From an uncultured Pseudomonadota bacterium (GTDB lineage: Bacteria; Pseudomonadota; Gammaproteobacteria; CAJXQU01), in the NCBI GenBank assembly GCA_913058255.1, contig CAJXQU010000001.1, positions 186,001 to 250,000 on the forward strand: a stretch of 64,000 nucleotides of DNA, in the 5' to 3' direction. The notes under the pieces were generated by a model. The model had not been told where the DNA came from. It worked only from the letters and a program-made list of their open reading frames with translations, and did not search any database. This document shows, in pieces, positions 19,358 through 64,000 of the stretch. The first letter of the stretch is position 1; each line of letters begins with the position of its first letter. The position numbers were made by a program, and so were the translations under genes.

Positions 19358-22300
19358 TGACAACAGAAAGCACTGCTGCCGATCAATCCATCCGCGATCA
19401 AGCATTAGACCCTGAACAATCTTTTATCGTTCAAGCACCCGCCGGCTCAGGTAAAACAGAATTATTAATGCAACGTTATTTAGCATTACTGGCAACGGTT
19501 GATCACCCAGAAGAAATTATTGCGATCACTTTTACACGAAAAGCAACAGCAGAAATGCGAGGCAGAATAGTCGCTGCGTTAGATCAAGCATCTGACGCAG
19601 AAAAACCACAGAAAACACACGAGCTAACGACATGGACATTAGCACAGAAAGTTTTAAAACGTGACACTGAATTAAAGTGGAATTTATTAAAAAACCCAAA
19701 CCGTTTACGCATTCAAACTATCGACGCGATGTGTTCAAGTTTTGCGCGACAAATGCCGGTATTATCACGAACCGGCGTAAGTCCGCAAATTGTAGAAAGA
19801 GCGGATCATTTATATAGACAAGCTGCACAAGCAACACTGAAAGGATTAACTCGACATACAGAAGTGGCCTATTTATTAGGCCACCTAGATAACAACTGGC
19901 AAAAGCTTGAGGGAATGATCTCAAGCTTATTACAAAAACGTGATCACTGGCTTCGTCATTTACCATTCGGGAGTGATGATTTTGGTCGGCTGCAAGAACG
20001 TGAAAATCTTGAAGCAAGCCTATGCGCAATTATTAGCGAAACGCTTGAAAAAAGCTTAGAAAAAATACCTTTAGAGATTCGAAGGGATTGGTTAGCATTA
20101 GCGAATTTTGCAGCAAGCAATATACATAAATCCGAGAAAAAAAGTTCATTAAATGCTTGTCTAGAGATACAAGAGTTTCCTGATTCCTTTCCAGATAGTT
20201 TGAATGTTTGGGAAGGTTTGCTTGAAATGGTATTGGTAAAAACAGGTGGTTGGCGAAAATCAGTTACGAATAATATAGGTTTTCCTGCTCCCTCTACGAT
20301 CAAGGATAAGGAACAAAAGCAGATCGGTACAGATATGAAAATATCAATGCTGCGCTTGATCGAAAATCTGCAAGATGTACCTGACTTACAGGAAAGTTTT
20401 CAAGCAATTAGGTTATTACCAAGTCCAGCATATAGCGATGAGCAGTGGGATGTATTGCAGTCCTTATTTGTTGTTCTCAAGTTAGCTGTCGCACAACTAC
20501 AAATTGTATTTCGTGAACAGAGTCAGGTGGATTTTACAGAGGTAAGCATTGCTGCTGTGTATGCCCTAGGTAATGAGTCTGAGCCAACAGATCTTGCATT
20601 GTCTTTAGATTATAAAATAAAACATTTATTAGTTGATGAGTTTCAAGATACATCGGTTAGTCAATATTCTTTATTAGAAAGAATCACCGCAGGTTGGGAA
20701 TTAAATGATGGACGTACCTTATTCTTGGTTGGTGATCCCATGCAATCAATCTACCGCTTTCGTGAAGCAGATGTTGGTTTATTCATCAATGTGCAAAGGC
20801 AAAAATCATTAGGTCATATTCAATTAGAGCCACTTCAGCTATCGGTGAACTTTCGATCGAAACAAGTGATCGTTGAGTGGGTGAATGAAGTTTTTCAACG
20901 AGCGATGCCAGCCGAAGCTTCAGTGACTAGCGGTGCTGTTTCTTATACAAAATCAGAAGCATTTCATAAACAAACATCAGATGCTTCAGTCGCCATTCAT
21001 CCCTTGGTTGATGTTGATAGAAAACAAGAGGCAGATCTTGTTTGTAGTTTGATTAAAACAGCAATGGATCGAGAAGAAACCGTTGCTGTTTTAGTTAGAA
21101 ATCGGTCACATCTTGTACAAATAACGAGCCGATTAAAAGAAAAGAAACAAGCCTATCAAGCGGTCGAAATAGAATCCTTAACTCAGCAAGCCGTGATAAG
21201 AGATTTATATTCTTTGACATCAGCCTTATTACATTTAGCTGATCGAACAGCGTGGCTAGCGATATTGCGAGCGCCTTGGTGTGGTTTAAGCCTGAATGAT
21301 TTAGAGCTGCTAAGCCAGCAGTCATCAGCAACGATTTGGGGTTTGATCAATTATGATAAAAGAGTAAAAAGCATAAGTGAGGATGGGCAAAAAAGATTGT
21401 GTAAACTACAAGCTGTCATGAAAAAATCTCTGGTTCAAAGGCAACGTATTTCATTGGCGCGTTGGGTTGAGGGGACTTGGATTATGCTCGGCGGGCCAGC
21501 TTGCTTAAACAGTGAGTCAGGTTTGGATAACGCTCAAGCATTTTTTAATTTACTTGGCGAGCTTGATGATGGCTATGAACTGGAATCACTGGATGCGCTT
21601 GATCAAAAATTAAGTAGTTTATTTGCTGCGCCTAATGCTTCTGATCAAGCTATGCCGCAATTAATGACTATCCATAAATCCAAAGGTTTAGAGTTTGATA
21701 CGGTTATTATCCCCGGGTTAGAGCGACAGCCAAGAAATGATGATCGACAATTATTGCAGTGGACTGAATGGCGGAATACGATTGAAAATACAGATGAACT
21801 ATTGCTCGCCCCGATCGAAGAAACAGGACGAGAAAAAGAGCGGATTAATCAATATTTACAAGTGCTGGAAAAAGAGCGTGCTCGTCATGAAGCTGTCCGA
21901 CTGTTATATGTTGCTGCGACACGAGCACAGAAAAATTTACACTTAATCGGACAAGTCGAGCACAGTGAGAAAGGCGAAATTAAATTGCCGGATCAACGGT
22001 CCTTACTTTCAAGGATATGGTCTTCTGTAGAAAGTGATTATTTAGAAAGTTCTCATGCAATTAAGCCAACCGATCAGAATGAGAAAAGTGATGAACTTTT
22101 CATACCTTATATAAAAAGATTGCTTGTTGATTGGGAAGTTCCTACACGAGAACCTGCTGTCCATTGGGCTGGATCTGACAGACTAAAAAGTGAGGGTGAA
22201 AAATCGGGAGAAGATTCAACAATAGAATTTTCATGGGCGGGAGCACAAGCAAAGCATATAGGGATAGTTGTGCATAGAATTCTACAACAGATTGCCGAAG

Positions 22301-51835: not shown

Positions 51836-52528
51836 TTAGGGTAAACGCCCAGCTTGAACCATGCGGTTTTTTAGAATGTTAGGAGAGATCCAAATCATTA
51901 GATCGTCGAATTCAGCAGTCTCGGCTTGGCTGAAGTCACGATAGACAAAGGTCTTGTCGCCATTAGAGTTTTCTTGTTCATCACCTGATTGATCACTACT
52001 AACAGAGGTTCCATGTTTACCGGTTGAGAATACGACGACAGGAACATTACTAACAACGGCACCACCAACCGCATTAATAATATTGAGATCTCCGACTGAG
52101 CAGAGTTCAAAGCTAACGCCAGCAGTCGCTGTGCCACAAGCATCTGTCGCTGTCGCACCGGTACCATCAACATTATCAGCAAAATTTGCTGTGACAGCAT
52201 AAGCGAAGTGCTCTCGCCAAGCATCAAACTCAGGAATTCCAAGGGTTACATAGGGTAGTGAGCCAAATGAAACTGTACATCCTCCCGCTCCACCAACAGG
52301 ATGCTCCTCTCCAGGAGTTGCACTATTATCCGGGCAAGGAAGGCGTCCATGAGTAATCGCAAACCCAAGCAAGGCTTCTCTGATGTTATCTAACTGCGCT
52401 TGCGTACTCTGTCGTTCTTTTTGTTCCATTTGTGTTGAGAGTGGGCCTAAAACACCCGCGAGCAGAAAGCCTATTATCAAAAGTGAGATGGCTATTTCTA
52501 GTAATGTAAAACCATTTTGTCTTTTCAT
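51836..52528 (-). CDS. Type IV prepilin-like protein (pseudopilin)
   Basis: The 230-residue protein starts with a prepilin leader MKRQNG and the cleavage and helix motif FTLLEIAISLLIIGFLLAG, so it is processed by a PilD peptidase. Motifs GRLPCPD, SLPYVTLGIPEFDAWREHFAY and VVVFSTGKHG with a later FDDLMIWIS recur in related form in the neighbouring giant protein. Cysteines suggest disulfides. Last gene of the pilus operon. It starts one base after the stop of the giant gene. Confidence 0.85.
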   Translation of the reverse strand: MKRQNGFTLLEIAISLLIIGFLLAGVLGPLSTQMEQKERQSTQAQLDNIREALLGFAITHGRLPCPDNSATPGEEHPVGGAGGCTVSFGSLPYVTLGIPEFDAWREHFAYAVTANFADNVDGTGATATDACGTATAGVSFELCSVGDLNIINAVGGAVVSNVPVVVFSTGKHGTSVSSDQSGDEQENSNGDKTFVYRDFSQAETAEFDDLMIWISPNILKNRMVQAGRLP

Positions 52529-52529
52529 A

Positions 52530-55463
52530 TTAATAACAATTATCTATTTCGTTAGGTGGAGGACAAGGGGCTACTCGTTTTATTTGGTCATTAAAGACAT
52601 CCAAAGTTGGATCAAAACTACCGAGATCAAAAGTAGTGTCTTCATTGTTGTTATCACCTTCATAGTAGTCTGAAATAAGACCATTATCTCTATCTTGAAG
52701 CAGCACGGAAAGTTCTTGACCTGCAGCGATCACTAAAGCTTTTTTATCATCATTGTTTGGCGCCTGTCTTGTTGTGCCTGAGTTATCTGAACCATTAATT
52801 TTAAGACAGACTGCGCTATCTGCGCAGTTACCAGATTGACCAGGAAAGTGTTGTTCAGACTCTGCAACTAACATGAGTTGCTGCCAGTTATTGTGAAAGA
52901 ACCATTTTGGAAATTCATGATAAATTTTATATTCATCACCTACGTCTATTGTGAATTTAGGTGAACCTATACTTGCAATGACTATTTTGCTTTCATCGAT
53001 AGACTTTACTTTTCCTTTTGTAGAATTAGTGAAATTTTCCACCCAATCACCGACATTAACATTCCACTCCGGAAACTTAATATTAGTATCGATCAATGTT
53101 GTTGTATTACTCCCGGCTTTCGCAACACCATCTAGATTTTCATAATCCACATGAATGTTTGAAGTTGAAAAAGTTCCTGTTGTATTTTCGTCAATTGAAA
53201 TACTGGCATTCGTTATAACATCACCATTAGCGTTATGATCCGTTATCGAGGAAAAGAGATCTGCGGTATCAATTTCGGCATCCACATGGCGAACTTTTTC
53301 ACCTGCGATACTCTCTAAACGAGTATTCCCTTCATATTTAAAATCTACTTCATTAACTGTTCGAGTACGAACAAAATCCATTCGGATTAGAAACGTATCA
53401 CCAGCATCGAAAGTGTAATCACTGCCATTAAGGTCTGAAAATTGTTCAACAATAGCCGTCGAAAATATGGGGTTCAATGTATATGATCCAATGCTGGTGA
53501 GATAACCACTCGCTTTAAGTTCTCCTGCCCCATTTAAGATAATCATGCTGTCTCCAGTTTCAACTTCTGGAGTACCGGCTAACTGTAAGTTAATGACCAA
53601 GCTTCCATCATTCGACAAGCTCATTACTTCACCACCAACTTGATCCGTGGCGACATCAACGAGATAAAAATCTCCCGTATTCAACGAGGTAGGCATATTG
53701 GTTATTGATATTTCTGTTTCAGAGGAGACTTCGGAAACGATGCCTCTATTGCTACTACTTAGCTGTCGGTTATATATTTTAAATAGTCCATTGATGCTAT
53801 TTTTTGAATCATCTAAACTGACCAGAGCAAGGCTATGAGGCTGGACGGAAGTGATGATAAATGCTTCTTTATCGTTCTCGTTGTTTTGTAGGTCATAAAT
53901 AAGAATATCGTTAGGGTCTATCTTGGGGCGTTCGCTGGTGAAATTTTCTAGTAGATCGGCAGTTATTAACGTTTGATCATGGCTGCCGGTATAAGCGACA
54001 CCACTGCGTTTTATGACTTCTTCGCCATCAATATCAAGATCTTGGTCGATAATGACGAACTGTTCACCTTCAGAAAATGTATTGATGGTTTCTTTTATAG
54101 TCAACTGATTTGCACCGACACTTGCAATAGATCCTATCCAGTTTTGAGTAACATTTTTTATTTTATCATCGATATTAACCCGTTCTATTGCCACAGAAAA
54201 ATCTTGGGTAACGTCGATAATTTCATTTAAAGAGGTGCTTGTGTTTGCACCATACCTAAGGTATTGCAACTCTGAAATAGTCACACTATTAGAGAGGTTG
54301 TAAACGATATCCCCCCTTTCTACGCCGAGAGATTCAAAGGCTTGATCTGGATCTATAACATCTTCACTAACAGAGGAGTCTGCTTGCCCGAAAAGATAAA
54401 ACTGGCTTTCTGATAGCGTTCCTTCGCAGTTTGCAACATCCGCTTGAGTCCACAGACACTCTCCTTGCCCATATTCAATAGAAAAAGGAGTTAGAGAGCT
54501 TAAGGTTGTCCTATCACTCCAGTAATTAGTCTGACCGTGTGGAGGATTAAGTACTGGAGTGGGAGAAAAAATTGCATTTTTTATGTTTAAGCTAATTTCA
54601 AAGCTTGTAGAAAATGTCTCGTCTACTTCATGGTATGGGATTAACCCTTGTGTTGTAGCGCCGGTTTGGTCGCTGTTATAGCTGGAGGTTCTTGGTGAGG
54701 AAAATGGCGCAAGAAAAGGATAAACCCCACCGTTTCCATAAAGTCTGCGGTATTCATTTAGTTGAATAGCAACCTCTCCCATCACTCGCTTTTCAACAGC
54801 AGCCATTAACTCTTGTCGTGTGATGACTAAGACTTGATCATTAAAGTTTGAACTGGATGATGAAGATACAAAGTCAGCATCTCCATCACGATTATCACCT
54901 TCAAGATAATCGCTCGCTACGTTGCTTGGTCTATTCTGCCCTTCAAAACTAAAACCAGGAGCTAAAATAATAGCAACAATGTCAGAGGTTCCATCGATGG
55001 TTAGACCTCCAGCGGTTTCGCTATTTAATGGGAAATGTTTTATTGGATTATTTCTGAAATCATCTGATACGACATACCATAAATGTTCTCCGCTACTATC
55101 ACGGATTTCATCCAGTCCAATAAACTCCCAAGGTAACCTTCCAACTGTATTCGGGGAACATGGGGTTGGAGAACCATTCGGTGGATCGCTAACATCTGGG
55201 CAAGGAAGATAACCCGGGCCTGCATTAATATTTGTCGTTGTAGGATTATCAGGATAGCTAACCGCATATCCAATCAAAGCTTCTTTAGCCTTAACCAAAG
55301 CCTTCATCGTTACATCATCACGATAATATTGGGTTGCCGCTTTATTGAGTTTAGAAACGAGTAGTGTGGATGCACCAACGATCAGCAATAGCACAAACAG
55401 TAATAGAGCCGCCCCTTGTTGTTTTTTAGGGAGCTTGTTTTTTTGAGTTTTGAAATGCGCCAT
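52530..55463 (-). CDS. Giant minor-pilin-like protein with beta repeats
   Basis: The 977-residue protein has a PilX/GspK-like N-terminus: a basic stretch, then one membrane helix (QGAALLLFVLLLIVGASTLL, 16-35). Residues 60-220 match the smaller pseudopilin (GYLPCPD, GRLPWEFIGLDEI, HLWYVVSDDF). The unit A(I/V)IxAxG ... QxR ... DYxEGDN ... FNDQ occurs twice, at about 163-210 and 908-960. Residues 380-850 hold degenerate beta repeats, for instance VNIDDKIKNVT...GEQFVI (429-471) and VNVGDWVENFT...GDEYKI (802-847), with further ends GDFYLV, GDSMII and GDTFLI. A pilus-tip adhesin is a fair guess. No homology can be named with confidence. Confidence 0.7.
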   Translation of the reverse strand: MAHFKTQKNKLPKKQQGAALLLFVLLLIVGASTLLVSKLNKAATQYYRDDVTMKALVKAKEALIGYAVSYPDNPTTTNINAGPGYLPCPDVSDPPNGSPTPCSPNTVGRLPWEFIGLDEIRDSSGEHLWYVVSDDFRNNPIKHFPLNSETAGGLTIDGTSDIVAIILAPGFSFEGQNRPSNVASDYLEGDNRDGDADFVSSSSSSNFNDQVLVITRQELMAAVEKRVMGEVAIQLNEYRRLYGNGGVYPFLAPFSSPRTSSYNSDQTGATTQGLIPYHEVDETFSTSFEISLNIKNAIFSPTPVLNPPHGQTNYWSDRTTLSSLTPFSIEYGQGECLWTQADVANCEGTLSESQFYLFGQADSSVSEDVIDPDQAFESLGVERGDIVYNLSNSVTISELQYLRYGANTSTSLNEIIDVTQDFSVAIERVNIDDKIKNVTQNWIGSIASVGANQLTIKETINTFSEGEQFVIIDQDLDIDGEEVIKRSGVAYTGSHDQTLITADLLENFTSERPKIDPNDILIYDLQNNENDKEAFIITSVQPHSLALVSLDDSKNSINGLFKIYNRQLSSSNRGIVSEVSSETEISITNMPTSLNTGDFYLVDVATDQVGGEVMSLSNDGSLVINLQLAGTPEVETGDSMIILNGAGELKASGYLTSIGSYTLNPIFSTAIVEQFSDLNGSDYTFDAGDTFLIRMDFVRTRTVNEVDFKYEGNTRLESIAGEKVRHVDAEIDTADLFSSITDHNANGDVITNASISIDENTTGTFSTSNIHVDYENLDGVAKAGSNTTTLIDTNIKFPEWNVNVGDWVENFTNSTKGKVKSIDESKIVIASIGSPKFTIDVGDEYKIYHEFPKWFFHNNWQQLMLVAESEQHFPGQSGNCADSAVCLKINGSDNSGTTRQAPNNDDKKALVIAAGQELSVLLQDRDNGLISDYYEGDNNNEDTTFDLGSFDPTLDVFNDQIKRVAPCPPPNEIDNCY

Positions 55464-55471
55464 TCTTAAGC

Positions 55472-56059
55472 TTACTGCGAATTTGCTTTTCCTATCACTT
55501 GATAGGTGTCGGTGATTTTAGCTGATTTAGGATCAAGGGTTTGGCCGACTTTTAGGCTAACTTCGCCGATATTGATGTCATCGACTTCAACATGAACGTG
55601 ATCGCGCCCAACCCTGTGTGGGTTTACTTTTATGTGCTGTGGTTCGAAGTAGCCATCGTTGGTATTAATGCCGTTGACCCATGCAGTGCTTCTGCCGCCC
55701 GAACGTTTTACAAATCCATTCACGGTAATGTTTGGGATTTCAGGAGCGGGTATGACAACTATTTCTGGTTTTAGATCAGGGTAGAGTTCTTCTTGCGCGA
55801 TGACCTCTCCGGAATATTCTGATTTCGGAGGTTCAAACTCGCGGTGTTCGACGACGAGAAGGGGTTCCTCTTTTTGAATGGGAGGTTTTGGTAGTGGGTT
55901 CCTCATCCGTTCTAACATGGCCCGTTCTTTTGGCGTGGTGAACAAGCGACCTAACCCTTCAGCGTGTAACGATGGTGTAAATGCCACGATTAGAATTGAG
56001 TTGATCAGAAGCGTCTTTTTTTTTCTGATCAATATTTTGATGTGTGTATTAAGGCTCAT
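55472..56059 (-). CDS. PilP/MshK-like pilus assembly protein
   Basis: The 195-residue protein has an N-terminal membrane or signal helix (LINSILIVAFTPSLHA), a proline-rich linker and a C-terminal small beta domain (ITVNGFVKRSGGRSTAWVNG, then VSLKVGQTLDPKSAKITDTY), like the secretin-linking MshK/PilP/GspC-type proteins. It overlaps the PilO-like gene by four bases. Position after PilO-like supports the role. Confidence 0.7.
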   Translation of the reverse strand: MSLNTHIKILIRKKKTLLINSILIVAFTPSLHAEGLGRLFTTPKERAMLERMRNPLPKPPIQKEEPLLVVEHREFEPPKSEYSGEVIAQEELYPDLKPEIVVIPAPEIPNITVNGFVKRSGGRSTAWVNGINTNDGYFEPQHIKVNPHRVGRDHVHVEVDDINIGEVSLKVGQTLDPKSAKITDTYQVIGKANSQ

Positions 56060-56673
56060 AATTTGATCTCCTGTCCTTCTGACAAGTTCAGGCTATACCA
56101 TTGCAGTTCACATTCGGCGTTAATATTCGGTTTGTCAGGATCAGTTTCAAGACCTTTGTTGGTTTTGCTGAACCGACATTGTTTTATATTAAATAGACCA
56201 GTGGCATCTTTATTAAGTTCGCTGATTAGTTTTGCGAGATCAATTTCATGCAACAATCCTAAGCTTAACGTCATGTTTGTTGCGTAGAGATTATAGGCGC
56301 CTGTTGTTAACTCAAAATCTGGTTGATAGATTTTTCTTGAGTCAATTTGGTAACGCATTGCTGGTAGTTTGATGGCTTTTCCCGCAGATTCAAGTGTTTC
56401 TACCCAGTTGAGACGTTTTTCTGAGCCAATTATGCCGCGGTTGTAAAGTTCGATAAATCTGGGGTAATGATCTTTGATGATTCTTTCATCACCATCGACA
56501 GAGAGGTACTTTTGGCTGATGGCCCGAAAACCTCTTTGGTTTTGATCATATTCATTTTGCATTTGAGCACGAAAGAAGAAGCTTCCTGCCAGTAATATAC
56601 CGCTTAATAGTAGGCAGACTAAAAAGACAGAGATAGCACCTCTAATTATAGGCCATTCAACCTTATGTTTCAT
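56056..56673 (-). CDS. PilO/MshJ-like inner-membrane protein
   Basis: The 205-residue protein has a single N-terminal membrane helix (ISVFLVCLLLSGILLAGSFF), then a periplasmic coiled coil and a small alpha/beta domain, the layout of PilO/GspM/MshJ. Sequence identity to any one is not evident. Overlaps its neighbours on both sides (11 and 4 bases), as expected for a tight alignment-complex operon. Confidence 0.65.
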   Translation of the reverse strand: MKHKVEWPIIRGAISVFLVCLLLSGILLAGSFFFRAQMQNEYDQNQRGFRAISQKYLSVDGDERIIKDHYPRFIELYNRGIIGSEKRLNWVETLESAGKAIKLPAMRYQIDSRKIYQPDFELTTGAYNLYATNMTLSLGLLHEIDLAKLISELNKDATGLFNIKQCRFSKTNKGLETDPDKPNINAECELQWYSLNLSEGQEIKL

Positions 56674-58255
56674 TGGCCACTCCTAAGATTACGGTGACGG
56701 CAAATATCGCTTCACGGCGTTCATTTTCATCTGCAGCACCAGAAAGTTTTGATTCTGGACGGATATCGAGAGGCATGCTGTCGATCTTGACATGGTGTAC
56801 ATTGTCTTCGTCTTTTATGGTGTTAGCGAAACGTTTAACCATGCTAAGTGCTTTTCGGTAATTCCCATCAAATGGTGTCAGGTGCCCTTTTAGCGTTGCG
56901 ATTTGATAATATTGATAGTCACCTTTTTCGATACCTTGCTCATCTTCAATAAGACTGTTGGTTTCGTAGGGATGAGTGTTTGGGTCGGCATTGACGGTCC
57001 AATCGATACCGTCAATTTGTAGACTTGGATATCGGTTAAGGACTTTGCTGACGGTGCTCATCATCAAAAATGGCGTTGATTTGTGCTGGCCGAGCGTATC
57101 AATGATATCGATGGCACTTTTTATTTCAGCCGGTTCAACGACTGTCGGCGGAAGATTCTTTTTCGCTATTTCATAACGAGATTGATAATAGGATGCTTCT
57201 TGAGCTGTTTTAGTCGACTGATGCTTTAATGAGATCCCCGAAATAAAGTTATAGCCACCCCATGTTGTTCCCGCAAGCAGAGTGAGGATGCTGGCAGCAT
57301 ACAAGCCGACGCGCGCTTGATGCATGGAAAAGTAGTGGGTGTCATTCTTCGAGCCATAGTGATTTTGTGGCGTGTTGGAAAGGAGTGTATGTGCGAAGAG
57401 GTAGTCACTGAAAGGTGTGGTTAGCACGCCTTCCACGCCTATCTCACGGCTTAAGGTTGCAACATCGATGAGGTGATATCGGGTCAAGCTTGTATCTTTG
57501 ATCCTATTATTCAGATCAACCAGGACTTCACCGTGGGCGAGAATATAGATATCGAGAGGTTCTTCACGTGATAAAACCCGTAGATTTTTTAGATACTGAT
57601 AGAGTTTTTCTAGTTCTGCGAGAACGTATGAGGCATAGGGTGTTGTTCCGTATCTTGGCAACTTAGCAAGTCGGCTGACTTGCAGTTGTTGATCACGAAA
57701 GTAGGTTTGCCTAAGACCACTTGCACTGCCCATACTGACAAGTAGAACATTACTAGATTTTGCTTCTAGTGGCTTAAGCAAAGATTTACTCATGATCGGT
57801 AATGAATAAATACCCGCCAGAGGCACTTTATTTTGTTCTAATAATTTGATCCAGGGCGTGATCGCATCGGGTTTTGTTAAAGCTGTTAATAAAACCTTAT
57901 CATCTCTTCGCCCCTCTTTTTGCCGACCTTGAAGCATATGATAGGCATAGGGAGAATTGCGAAAATTGCGATTAGACTTTCTTTCTAAAACACTTTTTCG
58001 ATCGGATCCTGTGACGTGCGGAATCGTGTCTTGTCTGAACTCTTCTTCGACCACATCGACTAAGACGTAAGTCGTGAGTAGTGGTGTTTCCTGCAAATAT
58101 CGAGCAAAGTGAAAGCGTCCTGTTTCATCAGCATCAAACTGAAAAGAGTCTGTGATATCATTATTTTGCCAATGATAAACAGTCACGGCATCCGCAGACA
58201 GACAGACAGCCCGCTTGGGGCCACGATTAAATTTTGATCTTAGCAATGAGATCAT
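56663..58255 (-). CDS. PilM/PilN-like (MshI/GspL-type) assembly protein
   Basis: The 530-residue protein starts with an actin-like cytoplasmic part of about 310 residues (AVCLSADAVTVYHW, VLLVSMGSASGLRQTYF, ASYVLAELEKLYQYL). One membrane helix at about 316-338 and a periplasmic ferredoxin-like part follow. That is a PilM-PilN fusion, as in GspL. The gene overlaps the GspF-like gene by 29 bases. The family is inferred from layout and context. Confidence 0.65.
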   Translation of the reverse strand: MISLLRSKFNRGPKRAVCLSADAVTVYHWQNNDITDSFQFDADETGRFHFARYLQETPLLTTYVLVDVVEEEFRQDTIPHVTGSDRKSVLERKSNRNFRNSPYAYHMLQGRQKEGRRDDKVLLTALTKPDAITPWIKLLEQNKVPLAGIYSLPIMSKSLLKPLEAKSSNVLLVSMGSASGLRQTYFRDQQLQVSRLAKLPRYGTTPYASYVLAELEKLYQYLKNLRVLSREEPLDIYILAHGEVLVDLNNRIKDTSLTRYHLIDVATLSREIGVEGVLTTPFSDYLFAHTLLSNTPQNHYGSKNDTHYFSMHQARVGLYAASILTLLAGTTWGGYNFISGISLKHQSTKTAQEASYYQSRYEIAKKNLPPTVVEPAEIKSAIDIIDTLGQHKSTPFLMMSTVSKVLNRYPSLQIDGIDWTVNADPNTHPYETNSLIEDEQGIEKGDYQYYQIATLKGHLTPFDGNYRKALSMVKRFANTIKDEDNVHHVKIDSMPLDIRPESKLSGAADENERREAIFAVTVILGVANET

Positions 58256-59435
58256 AGATTGGTCCTAACACAGAAAACATTATCCAGCCGATCAGCAAGC
58301 CGATAAAAACGGTTAAGGCTGGTCCTATCATTTGTTGTAACTGTTCGACAGATTCTTTGACTTCCCTGTTGTAGAAATAGCTGACGTTTTGCAGAGACTT
58401 TTCCAGTGTCCCTGTATTCTCCCCGACTCGCAACATGCGAAGTACAAGCGGTGGAAATAATTTGGTTTTTTCAAAAGCACTGCTGATCCCTTCGCCTTCC
58501 CCGATCAGCCTGCCAGCATCATTGATTGCTTTTGCTACGGCAGTGTTACCAACAATCTTTTCACCCGACTTTACACAATCCATCACGGTGATGCCTGATG
58601 CATACATAATCGCGAAATAATTTGTGAATCGCGTCATGATCATTTTTTTTAGGATAGGGCCGTAGACAGGAATTTTTAATTTAAGCCCATCAATCCAGCG
58701 TCTAAAATCAAGGTTCTTATTCATCCCAAAGGTTACACCTATAATGATAAGTATAGGAAGTAGGATAATGACATACCAAAATTGATTAAAAAAGTTGGAG
58801 AATGAGATTAGCACGCGCGTGTGTAGCGGTAACTCTTCGCCCATTGTCTGCATGAACTGTACTAGCTGCGGAACAAGGTACATCATCAAAAAGAACATAA
58901 CAGCAATAATGATGATGAAAACAAAAATGGGATAGGTAAATATTTTTTTTGTATTGGCGACCTGCTCATCCTGCCATTTTAGATTCTCTGTTATGTGTTC
59001 AAGAACCTTAACTAATTCCCCGCTTTCTTCGCCAGCACTGATCAGATTAATAAAAATTTCGCTAAACTCATTCGGAAAATCACTCATTGCTTCAGAGAGA
59101 CTTCTACCGCCACCGATCGTTTCTATCATGGCACTCATTACTTCTTTTAGGCGAGGAGTTTCAACACTATCACGTAGATCACCCAAGGCTTCTAAGATCG
59201 GTACTCCTGCTCTGAGAAGTTGCTCTAGGTGAAAGCAAAAAGTGATCAGATCGGTACGCTTTATTCCTTGCCTTGTGAAAGAGTTACTTCTGACTTTTTG
59301 GACTTGTTTATGAGAAATGAGATCAAGCTCGAGACGACTCAAACGAACTTCTAAGTCTCCTGGGTTCATCGCATCACAACGGCCGTGGATGAACTTCCCT
59401 GCCTTATTGATCGCCTTATATTTAAATAGCTCCAT
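58227..59435 (-). CDS. GspF/MshG-type inner-membrane platform protein
   Basis: The 402-residue polytopic protein of the GspF family has two T2SSF domains (FCFHLEQLLRAGVPILEAL; TNYFAIMYASGITVMDCVKSG) and three membrane helices (about 170-190, 220-240, 370-395). It is the platform on which the ATPase acts to polymerise pilins. Confidence 0.93.
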   Translation of the reverse strand: MELFKYKAINKAGKFIHGRCDAMNPGDLEVRLSRLELDLISHKQVQKVRSNSFTRQGIKRTDLITFCFHLEQLLRAGVPILEALGDLRDSVETPRLKEVMSAMIETIGGGRSLSEAMSDFPNEFSEIFINLISAGEESGELVKVLEHITENLKWQDEQVANTKKIFTYPIFVFIIIIAVMFFLMMYLVPQLVQFMQTMGEELPLHTRVLISFSNFFNQFWYVIILLPILIIIGVTFGMNKNLDFRRWIDGLKLKIPVYGPILKKMIMTRFTNYFAIMYASGITVMDCVKSGEKIVGNTAVAKAINDAGRLIGEGEGISSAFEKTKLFPPLVLRMLRVGENTGTLEKSLQNVSYFYNREVKESVEQLQQMIGPALTVFIGLLIGWIMFSVLGPIYDLIAKIKI

Positions 59436-59440
59436 CAGCT

Positions 59441-61147
59441 TTAATCTATGCGCTCAGTTAAGTCGATCACACGTGAAATTTCATCTAGGCTTGTAATGCC
59501 TTCAAGAATTTTTCGTATTCCCATATCAGCTAACGTTTTAAACCCTTTGGAGTTGGCTGTCTCGTTGAGTGCTTTTAGAGTGGCTCCCGCTGCGATCAAT
59601 TCGTCTATTTCTTGGTCAAACTTGAGGATCTCCATTATCGCGAGTCGTCCCGAATATCCTTGGTGATCACAGTGTTCACAGCCTTTTGCACGATACACTT
59701 GAAAAGGTTGGTTGCTCGCTTTTATACCCAGCAAACGACGTTCAATTTCGGCTGGATCATAGGGTTCTTTACAGTAATTACAAAGTCTTCTCACCAGCCT
59801 TTGTGCCAATATGCCGATGATATTTCCGGCCATAATTTCCGGACGTATGCCGATATCGAGTAGTCGAGGGATGGCACCCATCGATGAGTTTGTGTGTAAG
59901 GTTGTATAAACTTGATGACCTGTCATCGCGGCACGAAAAGCCATGGTAGCAGTGTCTTCATCACGGACTTCACCTACTAGAATAATATCCGGATCTTGGC
60001 GTAAGATTGAGCGTATACCGCTGGCAAAGTCGAGTCGAACTGCCTCGTTGACGGAAGTTTGTCGGATCATGTTTAAAGGATACTCAACAGGATCTTCTAA
60101 GGTCATAATGTTTACTGACTCGGTGTTTAAATGCGTCAGTAAAGAATATAAGGTTGTAGTTTTTCCGCTGCCGGTGGGGCCGGTAACCAGTACGATGCCA
60201 TTCGGGCGGGCGATCATGATTTTTAGCAGACCTAAAACATCTTCATCAAGGCCTAATCCTTCGAGTGGCACTAGGCCTTTAACGCGATCAAGAATACGAA
60301 GAACGATGTTCTCGCCATGCACTGTCGGAATAGTTGAAACACGAAAATCGATGGGGGAACCTGAAAAAGAGAGTGTGATCCGTCCATCTTGGGGCTTCCG
60401 GGTTTCGGCAATGTCCAGTCCAGCCATAACTTTTAACCGAACGGCAATTGCCGACCAGTAATTTCTATGGAGACTTCTGACTTGCCTTAAGACGCCATCA
60501 ATTCGATATCGAAATCTTAAAAATCCTTCTTCTGGTTCAAAATGGATATCAGACGCATCGCGCTTAACCGCATCAGAGAGTAAGGCATTTACTAGACGAA
60601 CAACGGGTTGGCTGTATTCGTCGGTATCACCTTCGAGACTATCGTAATCTATCTCACCTGTTTCTATCTCTTGAAGAATGCCATCAACGGATAATTCAAA
60701 GCCATAAAATTGATCAATCGCTTTATGAATTTCTGCTTCGCCAGCAAGAGAGGCTGAAATTTCAACATCGCCACCCATCAGCGCATTGATCTGATCGATA
60801 GCTAAAACATTAAAGGTATCGGCCATTGCCACGGTAAGACGATTACGGTTTTTATCGTAAGTGAGTGGTAGCAAGCGATAGCGTCGAGCGAGCTCTTTGG
60901 GAATTCTTTTAATTGCTTCACTATCAGGGACTACAGTAGTGAGATCGGTACTTTTCTGTCCTAGAGCTCCACCGAGAACATCACGAATAATAGCTTCTGT
61001 CGCAAAACCTAAACGAACAAGAATTCGTCCGAGGTGCTCGTTGTGTTTTTTCTGCTCGATAAGCGCGATGCGGATTTGATCATTACTGACCACACCGTTT
61101 TTGATCAGTAACTCGCCTATACGTAGCGGATTATTCTCGGAGTTCAT
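59441..61147 (-). CDS. MshE/GspE-type pilus assembly ATPase with MshEN domain
   Basis: Hexameric ATPase that powers pilus extension. In the 568-residue protein the first 60 residues form an MshEN c-di-GMP-binding domain: R9, G11, L14 and Q32 of motif one and LGxxL (39-43) of motif two are present. Next come Walker A GPTGSGKTTTLYS (about 325), Asp box, Walker B ILVGEVRDEDT and a tetracysteine zinc site (CNYCKEPYDP with CEHCDHQGYSGR). The c-di-GMP motif implies control of the pilus by this second messenger. Confidence 0.93.
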   Translation of the reverse strand: MNSENNPLRIGELLIKNGVVSNDQIRIALIEQKKHNEHLGRILVRLGFATEAIIRDVLGGALGQKSTDLTTVVPDSEAIKRIPKELARRYRLLPLTYDKNRNRLTVAMADTFNVLAIDQINALMGGDVEISASLAGEAEIHKAIDQFYGFELSVDGILQEIETGEIDYDSLEGDTDEYSQPVVRLVNALLSDAVKRDASDIHFEPEEGFLRFRYRIDGVLRQVRSLHRNYWSAIAVRLKVMAGLDIAETRKPQDGRITLSFSGSPIDFRVSTIPTVHGENIVLRILDRVKGLVPLEGLGLDEDVLGLLKIMIARPNGIVLVTGPTGSGKTTTLYSLLTHLNTESVNIMTLEDPVEYPLNMIRQTSVNEAVRLDFASGIRSILRQDPDIILVGEVRDEDTATMAFRAAMTGHQVYTTLHTNSSMGAIPRLLDIGIRPEIMAGNIIGILAQRLVRRLCNYCKEPYDPAEIERRLLGIKASNQPFQVYRAKGCEHCDHQGYSGRLAIMEILKFDQEIDELIAAGATLKALNETANSKGFKTLADMGIRKILEGITSLDEISRVIDLTERID

Positions 61148-61182: not shown

Positions 61183-63099
61183 TTAATTTTTTACGATGCC
61201 AGAAAGTTTCTGGATCCGAGCAAGTACTTGGGATGTGTTGAAACTGACTTGATGATTGTCAGCAAGTTTTAATGCTGTGCGATAATAGGAAAGCGCGGAT
61301 TTAGCTTGCCCCATTTGGTCAAGACTGACCGCTAGGTTATAGGCGTAGTCGCCATTATTTTTATCGGCGCTATAGGCATCAAAAAATGCTTGTTGCGCTT
61401 CTGGCCATCTTGTTTGTCCAGCGTAAAAGCTGCCCAAGCTGAAATGAACTTGAGGTGAACTTGGGTTCTGATCAAGCGACATTTTCAACTGGCTTTCGTT
61501 CGTATGCCCAGAAGTGTTTCCTTTCAGGTTAAACAGAGCAGCATTGACGACTTGATCTTGCGGATTTTGCTGCAATAAATAGTGATAGTTTCGATAGGCT
61601 GTTTCATGGTTTCCTTCCATGACGGCAATGGCTGCAATGCCTAGCCGTGCATCACGACTATCAGGCCTTCGGCTTAAAACTCTTCGGTAAGCTGATTTTG
61701 CTGTGATGAAATCACCTGCCTGATAGGCTTGGTAAGCGGTATCTAAATCAGAACGGCTAGCGCTTCGAGAGCGCCCTTTTGTGATTTTAATCGCACTTTT
61801 CGGAACATGAAGCCCCTCAGAAAAATCTGCTGCAGACATTACTTCAATAGGCTGATTACTTGTAAAGACAGGTTCGTTTCGACGATAACTCTCTTTTGAC
61901 GTTTTCGTCTGATATTCACGAGCATTACGAATAATCGTTTCTTCAAGTTCCGCAATTTTACGTGTTTGATACTCAGAGAGGTCGGCTGTATTGTTTGTTT
62001 GCGTGGTGAGCCTTGGTTTGGCCGAAGTCGTTTGTTGTAGAGTAGGCTGTATTGTTATCGGCGACACAGTTCTTGAGTTAATGACGATAGGCTCTTCATT
62101 CAGTGCTATCGTTGCCCCCCGCTGTGGTACAGCTTCAATCCTTGTGTTATCTGATTCTGCGGCGGGAGCTTCCTGTAAAGGTTCTGCTGACTGTGGGTTT
62201 GGTTTCACAGAAGGAAGTTCTTTAACGATTTCTGCGAGTACAGCATCTTCGATTTCTACGGTTGCGGTCGTTGTTTCTTTAACATTATTAACTTTTATGG
62301 TTTTAGTCGGCTGCTTGGTATTTGCCTCAACCACATGATCAACGCTTGCGATATTTGTTGGCATAAGGATGACTTTTGGTGTTACAGAAGAGTAGTAAAG
62401 TGCTACGGAACCAAGCCCAATACCGAGTGCTAAGGTACCAAACATCGCGTATTTACCTAAGCCAGTCGACATGGGGCGACTCTGCCCAGCAGTAAAAATA
62501 GTATGGGCTGTGACGTGTGTTGCAGAAGTATCTAGAGGAGAAGTACTGGTGATAGAGTGCTCAGTAATATCCGGCGGTGCAGCATTGACACTATTTTGAT
62601 CGAGGGTGATGGATTGCGATGCCTCGAAATAGTCTTTTAAAGAAGATTGGATCGCTCGCTCAGAAGGAAGCGTTGTATCGTGATCAAGATCTGACTTATG
62701 TATCCCTATTTCAGATTGCAACGTGAGGTCAGGCTCAATATCTTGAATAGCGTCAGAAAAATCTTCATCCGTAGGCATCGGTTCGATTAACGTTACGTCA
62801 TCATCGATATTGGAATGATCCGGTTCTTTGTCTCCTTCAATGTCAGCGTCTGATAGTTTTTTTGTTATTGGTTCGAGCTCTATTTCATCAGAATCAAATG
62901 TCCAACTTTCGTCATTTGGATCAACTAACTCTTCTGCAGAGTCTAAATCTGCAGTCAAAAAGGTTTCCGATGGTGACACAATGAGAGCATCATCAGGAAG
63001 AGCTACTTGCTCAGGAAAGTTTGCCACACTTTCGCCAGAGGAGTTTACACGACTCTTTTCTTTCTCGGCCTTTTTAAGCGCATCCATTAAGAGACTCAT
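61183..63099 (-). CDS. MshN-like TPR protein
   Basis: The 638-residue protein starts MSLLMDALKKAEKEK, typical of MshN/GspB-type pilus proteins. It has an acidic disordered region, a membrane helix at about 217-238, then a long linker and TPR repeats (about 440-635, for example YQAYQAGDFITAKSAYRRVL and YAYNLAVSLDQMGQAKSALSYY). It probably scaffolds the secretin or assembly complex. Position between secretin and MshE-like gene agrees with the MSHA operon. Confidence 0.85.
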   Translation of the reverse strand: MSLLMDALKKAEKEKSRVNSSGESVANFPEQVALPDDALIVSPSETFLTADLDSAEELVDPNDESWTFDSDEIELEPITKKLSDADIEGDKEPDHSNIDDDVTLIEPMPTDEDFSDAIQDIEPDLTLQSEIGIHKSDLDHDTTLPSERAIQSSLKDYFEASQSITLDQNSVNAAPPDITEHSITSTSPLDTSATHVTAHTIFTAGQSRPMSTGLGKYAMFGTLALGIGLGSVALYYSSVTPKVILMPTNIASVDHVVEANTKQPTKTIKVNNVKETTTATVEIEDAVLAEIVKELPSVKPNPQSAEPLQEAPAAESDNTRIEAVPQRGATIALNEEPIVINSRTVSPITIQPTLQQTTSAKPRLTTQTNNTADLSEYQTRKIAELEETIIRNAREYQTKTSKESYRRNEPVFTSNQPIEVMSAADFSEGLHVPKSAIKITKGRSRSASRSDLDTAYQAYQAGDFITAKSAYRRVLSRRPDSRDARLGIAAIAVMEGNHETAYRNYHYLLQQNPQDQVVNAALFNLKGNTSGHTNESQLKMSLDQNPSSPQVHFSLGSFYAGQTRWPEAQQAFFDAYSADKNNGDYAYNLAVSLDQMGQAKSALSYYRTALKLADNHQVSFNTSQVLARIQKLSGIVKN

Positions 63100-63111: not shown

Positions 63112-64000
63112 CTATCTGAGAATGGGCGTAGGATTTGAAACATGATTCTGCAAATAAGGTTGATACTGTTTCAAATCGCCGGTTAGGCTAGCATTTTTGA
63201 TCACGACAGGTCTTAGGAAGATGATCAGTTCAGATTTTTTGTTGGCAAAATCTCTTTGTTTGAAAGCATTTCCAACGCCAGCGAGATCACTTAGGCCAGG
63301 GACACCATCTGTGTTTCTAGAATAGTCATCTTGCATCAGGCCTCCAAGCACAGCGACCTGTCCACTATTTACTTTCAAGATGGATTCCATTTCACGAACA
63401 GCGATAACAGGAACCAGACTTTCAATACTAGAAATCGTGGTGCCGTTTGTTGAGGCTGCATTTGCTTGAGCAATGAGTATTTTCGGTGCCGGATCTGCAA
63501 CACGATCAACAACTCGAGATATTGTTGGACGCACATTTAGTGTAACGGCCATATTTTCATTAATTTGTGGTGTAACGGACATGACTAAACCGATTGGAAC
63601 GGTATGAACCTCAGACTCCACTGCGAGCAAGTTTTGTGCATTCGTACCCGAAGACTGGCTTATTTGAGCATCGATCGTGAAATAAACTTCATTTTTCACA
63701 ACTTTGAGAACAGCCGTTTGATTGTTCAATGTCATGAGCTTCGGACTAGACAGGACTTTCGTATCACCAAACGTTTTGAGTAGCTTTAGTGTTGTTCGAA
63801 AGTCGGGAGTCGTACCATTTTCGCTTTGAAGTGTTGCTTGAAAAAAGCTTGTAGCTAAACCTGTAGCACTGGGCAGTAATGTCTGGTTTAGTTGCAGAAT
63901 ATCATTGCCTCCAACTAGGGCACTCCAGTCGATACCAGACTGAAAGCGATCACTGAGAGTCACTTCAACAATCGTCGCTTCGATCAAAACCTGACGTTGA
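63112..64000 (-). CDS. MshL/PilQ-type secretin, 5' end outside window
   Basis: Outer-membrane channel for the pilus. About 296 C-terminal residues are visible. At the window edge the frame reads QRQVLIEATIVEV, the conserved secretin start, so the gene continues beyond base 64000 and the TTG at 63987 is not the real start. VLSSPKLMTLNNQTA, IAVREMESILKVNSGQVAVLGG and KSELIIFLRPVVIK match secretin domain motifs. First visible gene of the operon. Confidence 0.93.
   Translation of the reverse strand, partial: QRQVLIEATIVEVTLSDRFQSGIDWSALVGGNDILQLNQTLLPSATGLATSFFQATLQSENGTTPDFRTTLKLLKTFGDTKVLSSPKLMTLNNQTAVLKVVKNEVYFTIDAQISQSSGTNAQNLLAVESEVHTVPIGLVMSVTPQINENMAVTLNVRPTISRVVDRVADPAPKILIAQANAASTNGTTISSIESLVPVIAVREMESILKVNSGQVAVLGGLMQDDYSRNTDGVPGLSDLAGVGNAFKQRDFANKKSELIIFLRPVVIKNASLTGDLKQYQPYLQNHVSNPTPILR

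Follow-up and report, generated by a model that had tools for sequence, protein, structure and literature searches.

A giant K-type pilin-like protein with two tandem heads and an inserted, species-variable passenger in an MSHA-like operon

The window (the whole 64,000-nt stretch of DNA that was analysed) carries on its minus strand an open reading frame for a 977-aa pilin-like protein, here called the giant. It has a pilin-type N-terminus and two tandem heads (lobes), the second of which holds a modular passenger; the passenger varies between species, and the gene resides in a conserved operon (Table 1). We consider it probable that the giant caps the tip of an MSHA-like filament as its K-type minor pilin, with the passenger as an exchangeable binding head. 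This reading would entail cleavage by a prepilin peptidase, a position at the tip, ligand binding and control by c-di-GMP.

The operon and its assembly genes

The giant gene is the last but one in an operon for an MSHA-like type 4 filament. An earlier reading, made from the sequence only, correctly recognised the reading frame and the MSHA-like operon but put the giant at its end, the place occupied by the pseudopilin gene. Along the minus strand, the gene order is MshM, MshL-type secretin, TPR protein (MshN), MshE-type ATPase, GspF/MshG, I, J, K, giant and pseudopilin. The arrangement is tight: the giant starts 8 bp after the MshK-position gene and ends 1 bp before the pseudopilin gene. MshM, assigned via similarity to ExeA-type ATPases, lies just outside the window (contig 1 of the source genome, about 250936-252006), and the secretin gene extends past the window edge, encoding 583 aa when complete. 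This one locus has mshE, mshG, mshL and mshM, with MshL assigned by resemblance and gene order at a score below its cut-off (Table 1). Among the loci of relatives, machine genes are found upstream of the pilin pair in 63 of 64.

Like the MSHA pilus of Vibrio cholerae (T4eP), the locus has an MshM-L-N-E-G-I-J-K type gene set and no prepilin peptidase, for which there is one gene in the whole genome (G000:C1:582961). Unlike that system, it closes with a pair of pilins that have a head family of their own; mshA, which may be a loner gene in MSH systems, was not found in it, and its MshL score is slightly under the cut-off. The MshEN motif has been linked to c-di-GMP control (PMC5013675), and its presence in the ATPase suggests such control here; filament assembly would then be driven by a c-di-GMP-responsive ATPase of the MshE type.

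Table 1. Features of the giant and of its operon (window positions; residues are those of the giant)
Feature	Position	Strand	Evidence
Giant minor-pilin-like protein, 977 aa	52530..55463	-	ORF, translation; homologues in 58/274 class genomes
17-residue leader ending in Gly17; predicted prepilin peptidase site between QQG and AAL	55413..55463	-	Gly in 96/97 distinct relatives; single prepilin peptidase gene in genome
N-terminal hydrophobic helix, residues 18-69, without Glu at +5	55257..55412	-	0 Glu in 96 aligned rows; helix 17-69 in model
Lobe 1, intact pilin-type head, residues 70-215	54819..55256	-	pLDDT mostly about 88-97; homologous to pseudopilin
Lobe 2, first half, residues 216-277: second helix, YPFLAPF, GLIPY	54633..54818	-	Helix 216-242 in model; lobe 1/lobe 2 homology in passenger-free relatives
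Beta-rich domain, first half, residues about 278-352, conserved in gammaproteobacterial relatives	54408..54632	-	Alignment; low-confidence model
Partial beta module, residues 359-393	54285..54389	-	17.0 bits, HMM built without window protein
Beta module, residues 407-471	54051..54245	-	25.1 bits, leave-one-out HMM
Beta barrel, residues 533-603, possibly a degenerate module	53655..53867	-	Structure match only, Z up to 8.0 over 69 residues
Beta barrel, residues 606-694	53382..53648	-	Structure matches, e.g. EF-Tu domain 2, Z about 6.5-7
Beta-rich domain, second half, residues 700-775	53139..53366	-	Alignment with module-free relatives; strands in model
Beta module, residues 779-847, best-preserved copy	52923..53129	-	53.8 bits, leave-one-out HMM
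Lobe 2, second half, residues 850-966: KWF..NNW, ALVIAAG, DYYEGDN, FNDQ	52566..52916	-	pLDDT mostly 75-94; lobe-1 HMM matches 902-961
Partner pseudopilin, 230 aa, GFTLLE, has Glu5; head family shared with both giant lobes	51836..52528	-	N_methyl over cut-off; adjoins giant in 69/72 loci
MshK/PilP-position protein	55472..56059	-	Position, conservation; no family match
MshJ/PilO-position protein	56056..56673	-	Position, conservation
MshI-position protein (PilM/PilN-like by position)	56663..58255	-	Position, conservation
Inner-membrane platform protein, GspF/MshG type	58227..59435	-	GspF model 298 bits, under its cut-off of 424
MshE-type assembly ATPase with c-di-GMP-binding MshEN motif	59441..61147	-	NF053729 over cut-off
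TPR protein (MshN position)	61183..63099	-	Position, family scans
MshL-type secretin, C-terminal part	63112..64000	-	TIGR02519 237.8 bits vs. cut-off 250.2

A T2SS-like secretion pseudopilus, in which the giant is a substrate-engaging or gating tip and the passenger selects exported proteins and is no surface adhesin, is an unlikely explanation for this locus, even though GspE, GspF and GspG models score well (below their cut-offs) on the ATPase, the platform protein and the pseudopilin, the two pilins come without an obvious major pilin, and the giant is like GspK in having no Glu5. The best secretin score is that of MshL, the ATPase has the MshEN motif, the gene order is MSHA-like, and a separate T2SS-like locus with a GspK-like protein is present elsewhere in the genome, all of which argue for an MSHA-like filament instead. 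The shaft of such a filament could be built from the partner pseudopilin; alternatively, its subunit could come from a gene elsewhere, for example one of three tandem MshA-like genes on contig 3.

These three candidate major pilin genes (L188:2210-4102; contig 3, about 64209-66101) were recognised by eye only and have no assembly genes nearby; the second and third start almost identically. The 2.8-Mb source genome (G000) has several type 4 filament systems on contigs 1, 3, 6, 15 and 22 (the giant's locus, a second MSHA-like locus, a T2SS-like locus, and minor pilins with a PilY1-like gene), but only one prepilin peptidase, which is of the PF06750 type. The minus strand of contig 15 encodes another candidate modular pilin, of 311 aa (L185:2086-3018; about 20085-21017). 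It starts like GspK (NF037980, 22.7 bits, far under the cut-off) and continues with a DNRLRE domain that clears its cut-off at 83.6 bits, and its gene adjoins four other pseudopilin genes and the second MSHA-like machine locus (L184).

A pilin-type N-terminus and two tandem heads

The leader of the giant ends in Gly and is followed by a hydrophobic helix (QQG, then AALLLFVLLLIVGAS), a feature of class III signal peptides, and Glu at position 5 occurs in 0/96 aligned relatives; the PilX/GspK-like start proposed earlier is in keeping with these features. PilD would be expected to cleave the giant after Gly17. Although the N_methyl signature is characteristic of pilins, it may be missing from those of the K type; in a Pfam scan, this signature (PF07963) matched the neighbouring pseudopilin and not the giant. 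The GspK family model (NF037980) gave no match to the giant at E≤1 in the NCBIfam scan, and two other loci of the same genome match it below cut-off. Judged by its sequence, the giant is best described as “K-type pilin-like”, which is short of a Pfam-level assignment, and by analogy it would work like a K subunit though it has no GspK family match. Scans of the giant against Pfam, NCBIfam and PHROGs returned chance-level matches only, as did Pfam and PHROGs scans of its longest relatives. Searches of PDB sequences yielded no match, and Foldseek none at E≤0.001 for either of two models (the full giant and a 428-aa passenger-free relative).

Beyond the helix, the giant appears to consist of two successive pseudopilin-type heads, each related by homology to that of the neighbouring pseudopilin, because lobe 1, lobe 2 and the partner pseudopilins align with one another. 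The shared unit comprises a helix, a PCPD-like loop, G-LP-W, LWY-V, VAxIxAPG, YLExxN and FND. Compared by two-sequence BLASTP, the two end-units of the giant align at 37.5% identity (E 8e-6), and a lobe-1 HMM from which the window protein was left out matches residues 902-961 at 16.4 bits, where 1000 shuffles reach at most 7.5 bits. In a single profile-profile comparison, lobe 1 matched the C-terminal half of passenger-free relatives over 141 columns (probability 98.8%, E 5e-17). Profile-profile probabilities for the partner pseudopilins were 99.4% against lobe 1 and 92% against lobe 2. Both lobes would derive from the head family to which the partner pseudopilin belongs.

These comparisons bear out two proposals of the sequence-only reading, namely that the giant has two copies of one unit near its ends and that the small pseudopilin has a related copy. 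The motifs on which it drew are present at the residues given (GYLPCPD 84, GRLPW 108, HLWYVVSDDF 127, VAIILAPG 163, DYLEGDN 185, FNDQ 207 and 957, ALVIAAG 909, DYYEGDN 932, VNIDDKIKNVT 429, VNVGDWVENFT 802). Its picture of a pilin core split by an inserted passenger holds as regards the split, which is demonstrated by passenger-free relatives, but the core consists of two tandem heads, and only lobe 2 is split. The 428-aa passenger-free relative was modelled with a pLDDT of 82 and a pTM of 0.84; structural matches of this core at Z≥2 are to type 4 pilins only and are weak (CofA, Z 3.7; gonococcal pilin, Z 2.8).

The passenger and its variation across the family

The passenger occupies approximately residues 355-848 inside lobe 2, leaving lobe 1 unsplit. 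Lobe 2 begins with the helix at 216-242 and GLIPY (273), and resumes with KWF..NNWQQL (about 853). The stretch from GLIPY to KWF contains a beta-rich domain common to gammaproteobacterial relatives of about 550-640 aa, with a repeated module within and beside it. The module is a small beta barrel of ~70 aa (consensus GTATSGSNGTTLTDTSADFSDLGVKAGDVVENLTDGSIGVVTSVSATTLTVTSLSGGTNNDFSAGDSYRI) that occurs at up to three sites in the family: following YPWLSPF, within the beta-rich domain, and immediately ahead of PxWFxxNxW. Modules are present in the window protein at the second and third of these. They form a second level of insertion within the passenger. Degenerate beta repeats had been proposed for this region, and those at 779-847, 407-471 and 359-393 exceed the best of 1000 shuffles (8.4 bits; module HMM built without the window protein), but candidate copies at 491-551 and 570-600 score no better than shuffles.

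The full-protein model (mean pLDDT 70.5) has confident heads and several modules, with no single unrelated fold. Medium-confidence beta barrels are placed at about 410-472, 533-603, 606-694 and 772-852, and low-confidence stretches at 283-404 and 475-547; pLDDT is below 50 for about 200 residues, mostly in the passenger. The barrels resemble those of EF-Tu domain 2, V-ATPase and phage tails (Z up to 8). Kinship with these proteins was set aside, the arrangement being common and generic and Foldseek giving no match at E≤0.001. The module found nothing above chance in Pfam, PHROGs or PDB sequences, and a phage or plasmid source was rejected, as neither 50,697 phage records nor 72,556 plasmid records gave a match. 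Module matches in genomes of the class (185) and the phylum (398) are confined to giant ORFs, and the extra modules are missing from shorter relatives. No ligand-binding domain was recognised in the passenger.

Beyond the class-level homologues (Table 1), an alignment-based scan of 84,980 species genomes yielded 131 relatives, of which 80 were kept, in Gamma- and Betaproteobacteria (genera include Dechloromonas, Azonexus, Sideroxydans, Methylotenera, Propionivibrio and Accumulibacter). The family is widespread, fixed in one operon, and without a Pfam or NCBIfam match. Lengths of the 97 distinct proteins, a few of which are cut by contig ends, are bimodal (298-655 and 839-1159 aa). All 97 have lobe 1, and the N-terminal pilin block is retained in each of the relatives recovered, although the searches, seeded with the whole protein, were weighted to conserved lobe-1 stretches, so that relatives without this block would be hard to find. 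Lobe 2 is complete, truncated (in some relatives of ~300 aa), or filled either with beta modules or with an unrelated alanine-rich insert. The latter is seen in Rhodocyclaceae/Azonexaceae relatives (e.g., L081, L092, L120), with ~450 aa of alanine-rich sequence (15-24% alanine vs. 5-9%) in the same half and no module; composition alone suggests that this insert is helical.

On the lobe-1 tree, beta-module state requires at least 5 changes, compared with 17.6 for shuffles; it is clustered, but a single origin is unlikely. Passenger presence differs between close machines (ATPases 94-95% identical, giants of 869-872 vs. 311 aa). This absence in close relatives (872 vs. 311 aa at 94% ATPase identity), along with window modules that are degenerate and partly modelled as disordered, would fit inserts that are passive spacers or fast-drifting decoys (e.g., against phage or grazers) with no specific ligand, the tandem lobes doing the work. 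The best modules, however, are well conserved across families, with several copies at defined sites, and we think this explanation quite improbable. Relatives without a passenger keep the gene, so the basic role of the giant needs no passenger, and is probably filament initiation.

In a congener (G002) with the same locus (L059), the neighbouring TypA is 90.6% identical and the ATPase, on another contig, 90.7%, compared with 50% for the pseudopilin and 41% for the giant, which is truncated by the contig end at about 545 aa and has no modules; the lobe-1 tree sets the two giants apart. For the terminal pilin pair as a whole (window 51836-55463), identity is 41-50%, vs. 82-91% for other locus and neighbouring genes, a sign that the pair may have been exchanged or be changing fast. 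Cassette exchange of the two pilins is a lead only, since J and K genes also diverge fast in other pairs of genomes; from these pairwise comparisons, some pseudopilin identities near 30% were left aside because the wrong gene had been picked. Absence of the giant from a further congener (G001) was not accepted as a sign of loss, as two contigs end exactly there in an assembly gap, with breaks on both sides of the gene (L197, contig 33; L203, contig 20). Repeats may cause the giant gene to be systematically missing from draft genomes.

Place in the filament and relation to known systems

Type 4 filaments are assembled tip first, with a tip complex capped by a subunit lacking Glu5 (PMC10191384; PMC9934059), and bulky modular pilins have been argued to fit only at the tip (PMC8179133; PMC6561018; PMC9934059). 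By this reasoning, the giant most likely caps the filament, with the partner pseudopilin next. Its Glu5-less helix would anchor it as the first, outermost subunit above that partner; the passenger, which opens lobe 2, would project from the tip as an interchangeable head that binds a surface, polymer or partner cell. The tip-adhesin role suggested by the sequence-only reading is plausible on these grounds.

ComZ of Thermus thermophilus is likewise a pseudopilin-type protein with a large beta domain inserted in its pilin fold; it is argued to sit at the tip, binds a neighbouring pilin, and was missed by a pilin-finding tool (PMC6561018), as the giant is by the N_methyl signature. A corresponding role for the giant as DNA receptor in natural transformation is nevertheless very unlikely: a DNA-binding signature was not found, the model divides the window passenger into separate small barrels and shows no solenoid, and other relatives have alanine-rich inserts. 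ComZ has one head and one beta-solenoid of about 380 residues, whereas the giant has two tandem heads, nested small-barrel modules and lineage-specific alternatives.

Returning to the giant as a tip cap, the K-type subunit GspK of the HIJK tip complex shares with it the lack of Glu5, the Gly cleavage site and a large head insertion, but the GspK insert is single and alpha-helical, the giant has no GspK family model match, and its operon has a single neighbouring pilin. PilJ of Clostridioides difficile, likened here by description only, is likewise a single protein with a dual pilin fold, for which duplication or fusion has been put forward; it comes from a monoderm and is not described as having a passenger in its second fold (PMC4471445). 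PilB and PilC of Streptococcus sanguinis are minor pilins with a functional module, tip placement by modelling and many modules across species (PMC8179133, PMC9934059), but their modules (vWA or lectin families) are grafted after one pilin domain, while that of the giant is inserted into its second head. Compared with known modular pilins, the new element of this unnamed family is that the protein has two heads, the second of them split, together with nested passengers that are exchangeable.

A broader proposal, which we regard as possible but rather doubtful, is that Beta- and Gammaproteobacteria have an undescribed class of two-pilin type 4 filaments, each with a Glu5 pilin and a double-headed cap whose second head is a docking slot. 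Unrelated passengers (strings of beta barrels, alanine-rich inserts, or none) would be swapped in it. If so, the slot would set filament specificity on an unchanging assembly machine.

The number of modular pilins is thought to be underestimated, as their modules escape family databases (PMC8179133), and the giants would make up a whole family of such pilins across two large bacterial groups. They provide a second setting for the dual pilin fold, and their module is an undescribed small beta module. The relatives, which range from passenger-free proteins to one with about eight module matches, offer a natural experiment on the evolution of pilus specificity, and in this two-pilin operon tip initiation and ligand binding could be separable via the passenger.
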